Shown: piece by piece, positions 34,132-38,883 of the stretch | Layout: every line of letters begins with the position of its first letter | Position numbering within the stretch: the stretch's first letter is position 1 | Assembly: GCA_024276605.1 (NCBI GenBank) | Contig: JAJRWX010000044.1 | Span: 1-64,000 of the forward strand | Direction of reading: 5' to 3' | DNA from: Planctomycetota bacterium | GTDB lineage: Bacteria > Planctomycetota > Phycisphaerae > UBA1845 | DNA: 64,000 bases | Made by a program: the position numbers and the translations under genes | The notes under the pieces: model-generated | The model's database searches: none | What the model was told of the DNA's origin: nothing | Seen by the model: the letters and a program-made list of their open reading frames with translations, nothing else

Positions 34132-34773
34132 ATGAATAGAATGCTACTGAGCATGTTCGTAATCGGAATTGTTTCCAGTACTGCCCTTGCGCAACATGCA
34201 ATCCAATGTGATGGAACAGAGTCTACAGGTAGCGGGGCAGTCAGTTGCGACGCAAATACACGTCTATATGCATATCCCGTCACAGCAGTTGCGAGTGACA
34301 TTGAAACAATACAAATCGGCACTGACGATTGCCAAGCGTTTAATTACACAAACATTTGCATGCCTGCCGGATGGACATTCAATGTCATCCCTAACAGTTC
34401 TACTTGTGATACCGTTAAGACGGCACACGGTGACCCGACAAATGGTACCCCTTCAGACACATGCGGGTGTGCCATACAGTTCACCAAAGGTGGTGGTACT
34501 CCTATAGCAGCGGGAGCTTCGTTCATTTTTGGGTTTGATAATAGCAAACCATCCCATGATGTTTCGTGGAAGGCTGTCGACTTAGGAGGGGCGGGATCCA
34601 CCAGTGAAATGTTTGGAATGCCTTCCGGAAATGGCGTCGGACCAGTTCATGGACCGACGAAAGCGTCCCCCATCCCCACTGTGTCCGAGTGGGGAATGGC
34701 GGCTATGGTGCTGTTGGTGCTGGTGACAGGGACTGTTGTGTTCCGTCGTCTATCGGCGCGTCGCTTGGCGTGA
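34132..34773 (+). CDS. Exported protein with IPTL-CTERM sorting signal
   Basis: 213 residues. A signal peptide (LLSMFVIGIVSSTALAQ) precedes a Cys-rich exported domain with about eight cysteines (CDGTESTGSGAVSC, DDCQAF, NIC, STC, DTCGC), likely disulfide-bonded. The end is IPTVSEWGMAAMVLLVLVTG then VVFRRLSARRLA: the IPTL motif, one transmembrane helix and an Arg cluster, the C-terminal sorting signal read by exosortase-like enzymes. No sorting enzyme lies in the window. The ribosome site GGAGAAGTG precedes the ATG. Base composition is more AT-rich than the neighbours. Confidence 0.85.
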   Translation: MNRMLLSMFVIGIVSSTALAQHAIQCDGTESTGSGAVSCDANTRLYAYPVTAVASDIETIQIGTDDCQAFNYTNICMPAGWTFNVIPNSSTCDTVKTAHGDPTNGTPSDTCGCAIQFTKGGGTPIAAGASFIFGFDNSKPSHDVSWKAVDLGGAGSTSEMFGMPSGNGVGPVHGPTKASPIPTVSEWGMAAMVLLVLVTGTVVFRRLSARRLA

Positions 34774-34857
34774 TCATTCTTAATTCACGAAATTCAGCTA
34801 TCTGAGGACCATAACTTTTATGATCCAGGATAGCGGATGAAGTGTAATGACTATAAG

Positions 34858-34894
34858 CCTGGTGGCACACTAATGTGTGCTGCCGGGTTTTTTT
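34858..34894 (+). terminator. Rho-independent terminator
   Basis: A 13-bp stem with a TAAT loop (CCTGGTGGCACAC...GTGTGCTGCCGGG) followed by seven T, 85 bases after the IPTL-CTERM gene. Confidence 0.88.
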
Positions 34895-35048
34895 CTATCT
34901 GGAGCCGCGTTTCGTATATTCCACGACTATCCGAACGCAGGTTTGGTGCCGGATGGGTGCAGGACGATTCAGACAGTCTATGGCTCACCGTCCTTCACCT
35001 TCATACTGCCCACGATAAGACTCATCGCCGGTGAGATGTCACTATAAA

Positions 35049-35224
35049 AGGCGTGCGGCACCCCTAAGTTTTGGCGCGGTCAAAGGGTGCCGCAGCGAGT
35101 GGAAGCTATTTGATTATAGCCGTGCTGATTCACACCAAACGGTTATTTGGATAAGCGTGATCTTCAGGCTGCCCGAGTTCTCATCAGGCCTGCGGAACCC
35201 CAGCCGAGGCATCCGCTGACGCCT
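35049..35224 (+). ncRNA. Candidate structured RNA (unrecognised)
   Basis: AGGCGT (35049-35054) can pair with ACGCCT (35219-35224) to close a domain of about 176 bases. Inside, four hairpins can form in series: GCGGCACCC/GGGTGCCGC (35055-35093, 9 perfect pairs), GCTAT/ATAGC (35105-35120), CCAAA/TTTGG with outer CAC/GTG (about 35131-35159), and CAGGC/GCCTG (about 35165-35192). There is no open frame of note. A strong terminator sits upstream, so it is a separate unit. I compared it by eye with 6S, SRP, tmRNA and common riboswitches and could not match it. Which strand is transcribed is an assumption. Confidence 0.35.
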
Positions 35225-35445
35225 ATTATACCACCGGCTGTGACTTTTTCAAGGCTAACTACCCCATAATAACGCATAACCTTCGATAAAACTTGAAGTT
35301 GCAACGCTAGCCATCGCTCCATAAACGGTGACCTCACACCTTATATAACGACTGATTTCCATCTCAGCCTAACTTGAGCGACCGATAACCCCGCACGTGC
35401 CTATTTCCAACTTGGCCCATGCCCTCGGTCATTCGATAACCCTTC

Positions 35446-35622
35446 TAGTGCTTTGATTAAGGTAGCTCGGTGGGTGGCATGGGTAAGTCCCGATGTATCC
35501 CGACGTAAAGTCGGGATACATCGGGACTTACCCGTGTAGTTCCGGAGGCCGACACGGGCAAAAAAAACGTTGCCCATGCCACCCTGGATGAACCCGAAAA
35601 ATAAGCTGTGATACAGCACTAG
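35446..35622. mobile_element. TAGTGC-family MITE, copy B
   Basis: Left TAGTGCTTTG and right AATAAGCTGTGATACAGCACTAG ends; two exact 24-bp inverse arms (35481-35504 and 35510-35533) with a 5-base loop, then the CCCATGCCACCC segment. Almost identical to 16-165, so at least one of the two moved recently. Confidence 0.8.
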
Positions 35623-35747
35623 GTGTCTTACGCGCTGATCACCCGCTTTTGACATGCGGCTAACGATCTACTGTACCGAGGAATCGACCAAAAAATCCGG
35701 AAGAAACGTACTCCCGGACGCTACAGTTGAGCAGAGCCTGCGTTATG

Positions 35748-35761
35748 TAGAGCTTGCTCTA
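35748..35761. promoter_or_regulatory. Palindrome TAGAGCTTGCTCTA upstream of the HerA-like gene
   Basis: A perfect 14-base palindrome, 20 bases before the HerA-like start. Close variants lie at 43147-43160 and 57611-57624, each upstream of a gene. It could be an operator. Confidence 0.4.
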
Positions 35762-35780
35762 GCCATAGGAAGTGCGAAAA

Positions 35781-37811
35781 ATGAATCCACTCAAAATCGG
35801 CAACGTTGTACACGTGGAAAGCAGCTACGTTGACGTCATCGTCACCGCAGGAAATCTGAACCTGGTACATGAGGAGCAGACCTATCGCGTCGGACAGCTC
35901 GGCTCTTACGTAACCATTCCCATGGACGAGCGCACGCTGGTGGGCTTTGTTATCTCCCTCGGTCGGCAAGACGTCACCACCAACGATGTAGAGCCGCAAC
36001 TCATCATGCGTATGCAACTACTCGGCGAAATCAAAGCCGGAGGGTTCGTGCGCGGTGTCAACGAATATCCCATCGTCGGTGACGATGTCTGGGTGGCTGC
36101 CAGCGGTGATTTTGAATCCATTTTTGGAAGCTTCGACCAATTACTCAGCGGCAGCATACATCCACAAAGTTTCACGCTCGGCACCTTCGCCCTCAATCGA
36201 GATTTCAAGGTTAAAGTATTAGGTACCGAACTATTCTCCAAACACGTCGCGGTGCTAGGCAATAGCGGTAGTGGTAAAAGTGTAACCACGGCGAAAATTT
36301 TACAGGAAGTGTTGGAATTCGATCAGGCGCAAATCGTACTTTTTGATATGCACGGCGAATATCGACAGGCCTTTTCCGACGAGGAAGGCCAAATCAATGC
36401 CAACGTGACCTACCTCGATGCCGATCATCTCGTTTTACCTTATTGGTTATTAAAATACGAAGAACTCGAATCCATCTTCGTGGACCGCTCCAACCCCGCA
36501 GACTTAGCCACACAAATATCATTCTTGCGTAGCGCTTTACTCGAATACAAACAAGATGCGGCCCGTGAATTAGGACTGACAGAAGCGCTCACGCTGGACA
36601 CACCCATCTACTTTTCACTGGAGCAGATCAAAACATATGCAGAAAATCTTAACGAAGCGCGCTACGTGTTAAACGACGACCACCTCGCATTTAGTCAACT
36701 GGCCCTGCGCTCACTCGATCCCAAAGAACAACAGCGTCTCATGCGTACGCAACGCTGCCAGTTCAACCGAGGCAACCCGGAAGGTGAAACATCCCACCCG
36801 CTTTACTTTGGCAAACTGCTCGGATTGATTGACCGTGTCGATACCCTATTCAGCGATCGTCGTTACGAATTTATGTTGCGTCCGCTTGAGCATGGCATGA
36901 AATCGCCTTTTTTCAAGGATTACCTCTCACAGCAGGATTCCGCCGGTCAATCGTCGAGCATCATGAACCATCTGATCAAACTGCTCACCGGTCGCGTCGA
37001 ACCGCGTAGCAATCTGACCATCATCGATATGTCGGGGTTACCCTTTGAAATCGTTGACATCACCGTGGCTGTACTTACAAGACTGCTATTCGATCTGAAC
37101 TTCTGGACCCCCCACAAAGAACGACATCCCATGCTACTCGTTTTAGAGGAAGCCCATAACTATGTTCCCCGTGTGCCGCTGCAAACCAGCTTCGCCAAAA
37201 GCGCGGTGGAGCGCGTGGCTAAGGAAGGTCGAAAATACGGCGTAAGTGCCATGATCGTGTCCCAGCGACCTTCGGAACTTTCCGAAACCGTACTCGCCCA
37301 ATGCAACAGCTTCATCGCCATGCGTTTAAGTAATCCGGAAGACCAGGACTACGTCGCACGGGTCATCAGCGATCATTTCAAAGGCTTGATAGATATGCTC
37401 CCGGTGTTGCGACCCGGCGAGGCCTTTGTCATCGGCGACTCCGTCATTATGCCCATGCGTACCATCGTGCAAATGGCTGACCCGGCACCCAACAGTGGTA
37501 ATATGGACTTCTTCAAAGTGTGGAGTACGGAAAGCCCGAATTACAACATTGACGAGATCATCGAAAACTGGCGTCGGCAGACTCGTTTCCGTGGCGCTGA
37601 CGCGGAAGAAACCACCGCTGTCGAACCAACCTTTGAGACTGATACACCATCACCCGAACCATCGCCCTACCCGGATAAAGACGCACCACCCCCACCCACG
37701 CCGTTGGAGAGGCTCATCGGCAAACGTGGCCCGGCCAAGGCATCACGCTCATCCGATGCAGCAAGTGAAGGTAAAAAGCGAGCGGCGGCAGCGAAGTGGC
37801 GCGGACAGTAA
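35781..37811 (+). CDS. HerA-like ATPase (DUF87/FtsK-superfamily)
   Basis: 676 residues. The N-terminal HerA barrel (IGNVVHVESSYVDVIVTAG...GSYVTIPM) precedes the ATPase: Walker A GNSGSGKSVTT (about residues 160-170), Walker B LLVLEEAHNYVP (about 450), and the later SQRPSELSETVLAQCN motif. The last 80 residues are a Pro- and charge-rich tail (SPEPSPYPDKDAPPPPTP). HerA hexamers pump DNA and usually partner a nuclease such as NurA, or SIR2-like effectors in defence systems; no partner is encoded next to it here. ATG 35781 is preferred: AGGAAG is 8 bases upstream; a GTG at 35772 is the alternative. Confidence 0.88.
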   Translation: MNPLKIGNVVHVESSYVDVIVTAGNLNLVHEEQTYRVGQLGSYVTIPMDERTLVGFVISLGRQDVTTNDVEPQLIMRMQLLGEIKAGGFVRGVNEYPIVGDDVWVAASGDFESIFGSFDQLLSGSIHPQSFTLGTFALNRDFKVKVLGTELFSKHVAVLGNSGSGKSVTTAKILQEVLEFDQAQIVLFDMHGEYRQAFSDEEGQINANVTYLDADHLVLPYWLLKYEELESIFVDRSNPADLATQISFLRSALLEYKQDAARELGLTEALTLDTPIYFSLEQIKTYAENLNEARYVLNDDHLAFSQLALRSLDPKEQQRLMRTQRCQFNRGNPEGETSHPLYFGKLLGLIDRVDTLFSDRRYEFMLRPLEHGMKSPFFKDYLSQQDSAGQSSSIMNHLIKLLTGRVEPRSNLTIIDMSGLPFEIVDITVAVLTRLLFDLNFWTPHKERHPMLLVLEEAHNYVPRVPLQTSFAKSAVERVAKEGRKYGVSAMIVSQRPSELSETVLAQCNSFIAMRLSNPEDQDYVARVISDHFKGLIDMLPVLRPGEAFVIGDSVIMPMRTIVQMADPAPNSGNMDFFKVWSTESPNYNIDEIIENWRRQTRFRGADAEETTAVEPTFETDTPSPEPSPYPDKDAPPPPTPLERLIGKRGPAKASRSSDAASEGKKRAAAAKWRGQ

Positions 37812-37904: not shown

Positions 37905-38311
37905 GGAGCGGGCGAAGGTGATCGCTCGTGGGTCACTGCGTTTTATAACCCATACGCATACGCACGGGAGGAAAGTCCGAACTGGATAGGGCGCGGTGGT
38001 TGGTAACGCCAACCCGGCGCGAGCCGAGGGAAAGTGCCACAGAAAATACACCGCCTACGTCCGGACTCGTCCGGGCCGGTAAGGGTGAAATGGTGCGGTA
38101 AGAGCGCACCGCACGACCGGTGACGGTCGTGGCAGGGCAAACCCCACCGCCAGCAAGCCCAAGTAAGCAGCTATGAGGCGGCCCGCCTCCGGTGCCTGTT
38201 ATGGGCGCCAGGCTGCGGGTAGGGTGCACGAGTCGGCGGGCGACCGTCGGCCTAGAGAAATGATCGCCACCTCGCGTGCGAGGTACGGAATTCGGCTTAT
38301 CCGCCCGCTCC
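37905..38311 (+). ncRNA. rnpB: RNase P RNA, bacterial type A
   Basis: 407 bases, the catalytic RNA that trims the 5' leader of precursor tRNAs. The ends pair as P1 (GGAGCGGGC 37905-37913 with GCCCGCTCC 38303-38311). Conserved blocks are plain: GAGGAAAGTCCGAACT (CR I), GGGAAAGTGCCACAGAAAATA (CR II), GGTAAGGGTGAAATGGTGCGGTAAGAGCGCACCGC (CR III, P10-P12), AGGCAAACCCC-type P15 region, and near the end AGAGAAATGATCGCCACC (CR V) with ATTCGGCTTATCCG. A T-rich tail follows. A minus-strand open frame runs antisense through almost the whole gene. Confidence 0.96.
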
Positions 38312-38883
38312 TTTCTTTTCACGGCTCCCTGCACAGACGATGTGTCATTATTATGACACTTAGATGTAGGAAGGCTGTCTTCTGCGTCGTCGTGCGGAGG
38401 CTCGTCGGGTGGATAGAAGCCGGCGCCGTAAATATCTTCAACCAAACCGCCGAAATGACCGGGTAATGTCTTTTCTTTTGACACTGAAGTTTGATCGGCA
38501 TCCTCTTTCTTTTCTTGTTTGACGGCGCTAGTGTCAGCGCGTCGGCATTCCGCTAAAATTTTCGCCAGGGCCACAAGGTCGGACGTTTCCAGGTCCGATT
38601 CGCCCACAGCTAAGCGTTCGTAGATCATACCCACTAAGAGCAGGTACGTACGCTGATCCCACAAATGGGGTTCTTGCTGAGCTAAGTCGCCGAACAACGA
38701 ATCGAGAATGGCACTGATACTTGCCTGACGGCGGCGGTGCTGCGTGACTGAACGAGACTGCGGCGGTTTGCTATCGGCATGCGCATCTGAGCAAGCCTTT
38801 TCAGGCTTGGTGGCTTGAACCTGCGGCGCTTTCGCTGAGCGTCGGCGGGTCGTAGTCGTTTTGGTACGTCGTGATGTTGTCAT
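37933..38883 (-). CDS. Phage-like protein (DUF3486-like), 3' part antisense to rnpB
   Basis: 316 codons. The first roughly 190 are independent of rnpB: a Lys/Arg/Thr-rich start (RRTKTTTTRRRSAKAP), then a helical part ISAILDSLFGDLAQQEPHLWDQRTYLLLVGMIYERL...DLVALAKILAECRRAD that recalls the C-terminal half of DUF3486, the small-terminase-like protein of Mu-type phages. The last roughly 125 codons, to the first stop at 37933, are read antisense through rnpB and are surely not ancestral. The start is 2 bases after the upstream gene's stop. Probably the decayed 3' end of a phage gene that runs on because rnpB happens to lack stops in this frame. Confidence 0.5.
   Translation of the reverse strand: MTTSRRTKTTTTRRRSAKAPQVQATKPEKACSDAHADSKPPQSRSVTQHRRRQASISAILDSLFGDLAQQEPHLWDQRTYLLLVGMIYERLAVGESDLETSDLVALAKILAECRRADTSAVKQEKKEDADQTSVSKEKTLPGHFGGLVEDIYGAGFYPPDEPPHDDAEDSLPTSKCHNNDTSSVQGAVKRKERADKPNSVPRTRGGDHFSRPTVARRLVHPTRSLAPITGTGGGPPHSCLLGLAGGGVCPATTVTGRAVRSYRTISPLPARTSPDVGGVFSVALSLGSRRVGVTNHRALSSSDFPPVRMRMGYKTQ

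Follow-up and report, generated by a model that had tools for sequence, protein, structure and literature searches.

The minus strand of a gap between two protein genes of a Planctomycetota bacterium carries what is, judged from its sequence, a stand-alone small RNA (sRNA) gene with a predicted transcript. It lies at positions 35252 to 35044 of the window, by which we mean the whole 64,000-nucleotide stretch of contig JAJRWX010000044.1 that was analysed; the genome of the window is called G000 below. We put a probability of about 0.7 on the reading that the product is a trans-acting sRNA that works without Hfq and tunes carbon storage through the phaA mRNA in part of the order that carries it. 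The sRNA apparently represents a new family of a known kind, the trans-encoded base-pairing sRNAs.

The gap extends over about 1 kb, from the end of an IPTL gene at 34773 to the ATG of a HerA-type ATPase gene at 35781; the upstream gene matches IPTL-CTERM and the downstream gene DUF87. A terminator-like site is found at 34855-34890, in agreement with an earlier sequence-only reading of this DNA, which had described a 1-kb gene-free gap behind a terminator. On the minus strand, the predicted promoter (35225-35252) comprises TTGAAA (35252-35247), a 16-nt spacer and TATAAT (35230-35225), with a TG before the -10 box. It matches the consensus at 11 of 12 positions and is the sole promoter-like site in 34700-35850, which by itself proves nothing because shuffled versions of the region give 1.4 such sites on average. 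The predicted transcript of ~174 nt (35044-35217, minus strand), whose start was placed from the -10 box and whose end was placed from the U-tract, begins with a 5' domain (35107-35217) that varies among genera in sequence and length. The seed GCUUCCACUCGCUGCGGC follows (35089-35106), conserved in the alignment and complementary to sites upstream of phaA; the 5' half is single-stranded, and the 3' half doubles as the 5' arm of the terminator stem. The terminator hairpin (35051-35096) has a 13-pair stem with one bulged C and holds ACCGCGCC (35073-35080) in its large apical loop. It is followed by a CUUUU tail (35046-35050), and the alignment has a U-tract at the equivalent place. The conserved minus-strand part therefore reads GCUUCCACUCGCUGCGGCACCC-UUUGACCGCGCCAA-...-GGGGUGCCGCACGCCUUUU, that is, a stem, a loop of ~20 nt and then a U-tract, the build of an intrinsic terminator.

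Comparison with relatives supports the assignment of a stand-alone gene with a sigma-70-type promoter, an intrinsic terminator and the distribution described below, and we infer that the gene is transcribed. Promoters matching at least 9 of 12 positions lie 50-180 nt before the hairpin in 58 of 83 relatives. Markov-shuffled upstream DNA gave a mean of 3.65 and a maximum of 6 over 20 sets, and the opposite strand gave 2 of 83. One clade of 23 aligned sequences shares a TATACT -10 box located 81-90 nt before the hairpin. The predicted length of the RNA ranges over ~130-175 nt across clades. Upstream of the seed the sequences are rich in A; of the five positions that lie 17-21 nt ahead of the hairpin, four have 52-67% A.

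These features correct the sequence-only reading, which had proposed a new structured RNA on the plus strand at 35049-35224, with four consecutive hairpins closed by AGGCGT/ACGCCT. There is an RNA gene at nearly these coordinates, and it is found across the order; the strand and the shape had been misread, as the promoter and the U-tract sit on the minus strand, in the window and in relatives alike. The nine perfect pairs reported for the first hairpin are real (GCGGCACCC/GGGTGCCGC, 35055-35063 / 35085-35093). Approximately 65 bases (35040-35107), covering this hairpin and its flank, match relatives at 85-95%; past bases 81-100 of the query, the remainder of the interval has no match, not even in the other genomes of the genus. 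Beyond the genus, conservation is confined to the terminator hairpin and the single-stranded CUUCCACUC that precedes it. The expected conservation of the stems in close relatives thus holds for hairpin 1, fails for the outer stem and is partial for the others, one of which seems to be kept in the genus: a hairpin with arms 35127-35136 and 35155-35162 is predicted, by eye, in all three genus genomes despite sequence changes, which may mean that the 5' domain is still partly structured at this place. The 23 aligned sequences of the clade with the TATACT box showed no shared structure apart from the terminator. AGGCGT (35224-35219 on the minus strand) comes after the -10 box and ahead of the predicted start, so that this half of the proposed closing stem would not be transcribed. 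What speaks for a plus-strand RNA is the good fold of 35049-35224 (z -1.99; 8 of 200 shuffles equally good), and the minus-strand transcript folds slightly better (-64.3 kcal/mol, z -2.46, 5 of 200 shuffles equal). With no plus-strand promoter-like site in 34700-35850 and with conservation lacking in the outer stem and over the greater part of the interval, we regard the structure as first proposed as extremely improbable.

The window also holds two 111-bp MITE-like elements, at 16-126 and 35473-35583, which are identical at 101 of 111 bases and have terminal inverted repeats GGTGGCATGGG...CCCATGCCACC and an inner palindrome. Their 11-base end has six further matches in the window with at most one mismatch (10 in total, 1.46 expected).

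The terminator stem is paired in 99.7% of 871 alignment cells (67 sequences), with a double-sided change in only 2 cells. ACCGCGCC is invariant in the alignment. Such invariant columns are partly a product of selection, because the pattern used to fetch the sequences contained part of the stem and GGCGCGGT of the loop. Could the hairpin simply be the terminator or 3' UTR of a short peptide gene? A 32-codon ORF does fit within the transcript of the window, and in three loci divergent copies of the hairpin come after a small ORF. A comparable ORF is absent from the other two genomes of the genus, and loop length varies by non-multiples of three, so that we consider a peptide gene very unlikely. 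In the three loci concerned (L053, L055 and L058), the divergent copies are located 72-79 nt after a small ORF carrying ...VTAYF..GRL...; the ORF of L053 has no Pfam match, and the downstream gene of L055 and L058 resembles, by eye, a LuxR-type response regulator.

Of 114 genomes from the order, 101 have a match to a covariance model of the 3' part of the sRNA, four of them with two copies. Among good genomes (completeness of 90% or more and contamination of 5% or less) the sRNA is present in 63 of 65. In the family of the window, 42 of 51 genomes have a match. The only match of G034 is divergent and adjoins a small ORF, and that of G037 runs into the edge of its contig. From 392 genomes sampled across the phylum, the model returned the genome of the window and one weak match (28 bits), i.e. 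1 of 391 others; weak homologs may be missed in this sample because 13 candidates per genome were scored, as compared with 46 per genome in the order. These model searches do not demand the stem and loop letters of the fetching pattern. A pattern scan gave 87 records, and 74 of the 80 named ones that were listed are titled Planctomycetota or a subgroup thereof, mostly Phycisphaerae. The order bearing the sRNA is probably GTDB UBA1845 of the class Phycisphaerae, which a 2024 genome survey presents as an order with families such as FEN-1342 (PMC11266412).

Neighbouring genes depend on the clade: over 86 loci, with at least one genome counted twice, a HerA-type gene is found at 14 and another group of genes at 20, which fits a stand-alone gene. 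Viral contigs (viral_contigs) contained no exact match to the pattern. Four loci do not enter the counts for the alignment, the neighbourhoods and the promoters. Three of them are pattern matches in Salinisphaerales, Mycolicibacterium and Microbacterium (L062, L074 and L096) that were taken as chance; the fourth, L132, has a hairpin of the same kind with a U-tract and a promoter-like site, carries a different seed and is perhaps a diverged homolog. Two further loci (L044 and L126) are cut by contig ends. The sRNA was also found in L101, titled Alphaproteobacteria in what looks like a misclassification, and in L104, titled Chloroflexi. Both genomes of one genus of the family (G022 and G023) are without the sRNA by the covariance model, a possible loss.

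The claim that the RNA belongs to no known family has held. At gathering score, Rfam 15 matched only RNase P RNA in the window (37905-38315), and none of six sRNA loci (five from relatives and that of the window's genome) had a match; a search of 1,101 bases at E<=5 returned nothing over the sRNA. The RNase P RNA is of class A and scores 293 bits. 6S RNA (RF00013), bacterial SRP RNA (RF00169) and tmRNA were each considered and rejected. The sRNA matches neither RF00013 nor RF00169; 6S RNA was found elsewhere in 30 of 50 relatives (15 over the cut-off), all 11 of 11 genomes have SRP RNA as a gene of its own, and 10 of 11 have a separate tmRNA gene above the cut-off. G000 yielded no 6S RNA and only sub-threshold tmRNA matches, so for this genome the exclusion of these two families rests on its relatives and on the absent Rfam match. 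Its genuine SRP RNA is a separate gene (G000:C47:78844-78941), and the partial likeness to the SRP apical motif remarked on earlier was therefore due to chance. A decoy of the CsrB/RsmZ type was rejected because the core consensus lacks GGA; the 73 upstream domains contain 78 GGA motifs, as against 96.75 in mononucleotide shuffles (range 76-117). An Hfq-dependent sRNA was likewise set aside, as PF17209 was found in 0 of 40 genomes by a search that was positive in 5 of 14 known genomes used as a control. Pairing of the seed, loop and tail with E. coli 16S, 23S and 5S rRNA was matched by 3 of 30 shuffles at best, with exact matches of at most 9 nt; the 6S, SRP and tmRNA of relatives gave the same figure of 3 of 30 at best, and none stands out. 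In the literature covered, which excludes most subscription journals and preprints, we found no description of this sRNA or of any other regulatory RNA from Phycisphaerae.

A candidate partner for the seed emerged from the sequence search of the family, which also gave second matches, of at least 16 bases, to the complement of the sRNA, one of them before a thiolase gene of G000. The same site is present before the thiolase in both other genomes of the genus. The thiolase scores above the cut-off of acetyl-CoA C-acyltransferase (TIGR01930) and below that of the PhaA equivalog, and we call it phaA because of its surroundings, those of a polyhydroxyalkanoate (PHA) cluster: a class III PhaC lies downstream (TIGR01836 above cut-off in G000 and G015), reductase genes (FabG/PhaB-like) come after PhaC, and a PhaR-like gene (TIGR01848 below cut-off) is divergent. 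In G000 and G045, the ORF ahead of phaA in the same orientation resembles a phasin, although no family match reached its cut-off, and the site may therefore be intercistronic in these two genomes.

We scored the leaders of 51 phaA orthologs (at least 52% identity) for sites out of 18, counting wobble pairs half, a weighting that slightly favours wobble-type sites. Sites of at least 15/18 precede phaA in 14 of the 51, from nine genera; all belong to the family of the window (14 of 44, and 0 of 7 outside it), and 7 of 44 orthologs have a site once the 7 discovery genomes are excluded. Shuffled 18-mers placed a mean of 0.046 leaders at 15 or above, with a maximum of 7 in 500 trials, and the best score among control leaders (19 read from 36 less similar thiolases) was 13. 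Across 30 phaA loci (123,679 nt), 17 sites of at least 14.5/18 lie in sense and 1 in antisense. The site, CCGCAGCGAGUGGAAGC, ends 21-46 nt from the phaA start codon. Predicted duplexes of the G000 seed with five site-bearing leaders reach -27.7 to -31.9 kcal/mol, compared with averages of -16.3 to -17.9 for shuffled leaders; the siteless leaders of G046 and G029 do no better than shuffles. The complement of the loop ACCGCGCC has no sense site and one antisense site in the phaA loci. Of the genome-wide 16-nt matches to the seed complement, 40 loci were inspected; many of these are coding-like or do not sit at a recognisable gene start, as with a peptidase-like gene that contains the match in four genomes belonging to one genus, and such matches were set aside as likely chance.

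The pairing partners appear to have changed together. Twelve genomes combine a strong site with a detected sRNA, and in every one of them the 16 internal positions of the site pair with the genome's own sRNA through Watson-Crick or wobble pairs. In G039, a C-to-U change in the sRNA is matched by a G-to-A change in the target. The 15 sites scoring at least 14.5 differ internally from the consensus by 13 changes that keep a wobble pair (11 A>G, 2 C>T), 2 G>A changes and 2 transversions; these counts are not independent, because sister genomes share some changes and the score favours wobble a little. Both transversions belong to the weak site of G024. One G>A change is the compensated one of G039 and the other is in G019, where the sRNA was undetected and the common form of the sRNA would not pair. 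G019 and G017 (81% and 87% complete, respectively) both have the site with no sRNA detected. Comparison among genomes shows complementarity that has been kept by wobble pairs and by one compensatory change.

In the mechanism that we propose, the single-stranded stretch before the terminator would act as a toehold, from which pairing could extend into GCUGCGG of the 5' terminator arm, for a total of 16-18 uninterrupted base pairs with the site upstream of phaA. A seed that extends into the 5' arm would explain why the arm itself is fixed, and not just its pairing. The duplex would abut the ribosome-binding region of phaA, most likely lowering translation or stability, and for that reason we take repression to be somewhat likelier than activation. 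No consistent exposure or masking of the start region upon binding was seen in silico, and either sign of regulation would be compatible with this. Given that Hfq was found in none of the 40 genomes, the sRNA would act alone or with another chaperone; long G+C-rich duplexes can act without one. The binding of phaA mRNA is our inference from the pairing, and phaA cannot be the sole reason for the conservation of the sRNA: 37 of 51 orthologs have no site of at least 15 and most of these genomes carry the sRNA, so that other targets must exist. In genomes whose phaA lacks a site, such targets would account for the unchanged seed.

The shared motif could also be explained without any pairing between RNAs, if the 17-mer were a DNA operator at which one regulator, for instance of PHA genes, binds both at phaA and inside the sRNA gene. 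The two loci do contain an identical double-stranded motif, the phaA sites sit, by eye, where the promoter region could be, and drifting binding specificity could produce the parallel change of G039. The inside of a terminator at the 3' end of a gene would be an odd place for an operator, the sites favour the sense strand by 17 to 1, and the 13 wobble-keeping differences are the bias expected for RNA pairing and not for an operator, though sister genomes share some of the changes. On balance we consider an operator unlikely. Slightly less unlikely, in our view, is that the sRNA mainly binds a protein, as a decoy or as the scaffold of a ribonucleoprotein, via its invariant hairpin and loop, with the pairing to phaA as a local addition in some genera. 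The conservation of the stem and of ACCGCGCC goes far past the needs of a terminator and past the range of the phaA sites, and the failure to find Hfq agrees with this reading too. Wherever the 5' arm pairs with a target, however, that pairing is enough to account for its invariance, and the single-stranded CUUCCAC, which was outside the fetching pattern, is nearly as conserved; the CsrA-type motif GGA is also not enriched in the 5' domains. A trans-acting sRNA that pairs with phaA is the reading we retain.

Some sites beyond the phaA leaders may point to a broader role. Candidate sites free of mismatches lie further along the locus in G016, G024 and G045, 1.6-2.2 kb after the start of phaA and, in G016, 133 nt before a phaC-like ORF; G029, G036 and G040 have a candidate site in the region where a penicillin-binding-protein gene starts. 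We tentatively raise the idea, to which we give odds well short of even, of a master sRNA, present throughout the order, that governs carbon storage and growth, needs no Hfq and has its seed built into its own terminator, whose stem would be opened by pairing. One 17-nt code would be reused before phaA (nine genera), further down the PHA cluster (the first three genomes) and at the start of the penicillin-binding-protein gene (the other three), and would link PHA synthesis with cell-wall growth.

Several known RNAs offer points of comparison. Like 6S RNA (RF00013), the new sRNA is a single-copy stand-alone RNA of similar length, and the two are distinct, since relatives such as G041 possess both as separate genes. 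In Hfq-poor bacteria, such as Staphylococcus with its Rsa RNAs, seeds lie in loops or next to a G+C-rich terminator and pair over long stretches without Hfq; the Rsa RNAs have another seed motif and belong to another phylum. A parallel in function is MmgR of Sinorhizobium meliloti (alpha-r8 family), which a published review describes as a trans-encoded sRNA that controls polyhydroxybutyrate (PHB) storage post-transcriptionally (PMC8401924). Both would thus be trans-encoded sRNAs acting on PHA/PHB storage, a role that is predicted for the one described here. According to the same review, MmgR is a 77-nt, Hfq-dependent, alphaproteobacterial RNA that affects the phasins PhaP1 and PhaP2 (PMC8401924), whereas the new sRNA is ~130-175 nt long, has its predicted partner upstream of phaA, has no Rfam match and comes from genomes in which Hfq was not found. 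The review also mentions ArrF of Azotobacter vinelandii, an sRNA reported to bind the 5' UTR of the mRNA of phbR, a PHB gene (PMC8401924). As far as it is described there, ArrF is under iron control (Fur) and is a positive regulator of phbR, and so differs from the new sRNA in control, target and phylum.

With this work, an sRNA of the Phycisphaerae has an order-wide covariance model, a promoter, genomes negative for Hfq and a concrete predicted target that is backed by covariation between the two RNAs. The prediction is one of post-transcriptional control of the synthesis of PHA, a bioplastic, at its first enzyme. The use of sRNAs by bacteria without Hfq becomes directly testable with a reporter pair. 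If true, the more tentative idea of a master sRNA would concern bacteria whose post-transcriptional regulation is practically unknown.
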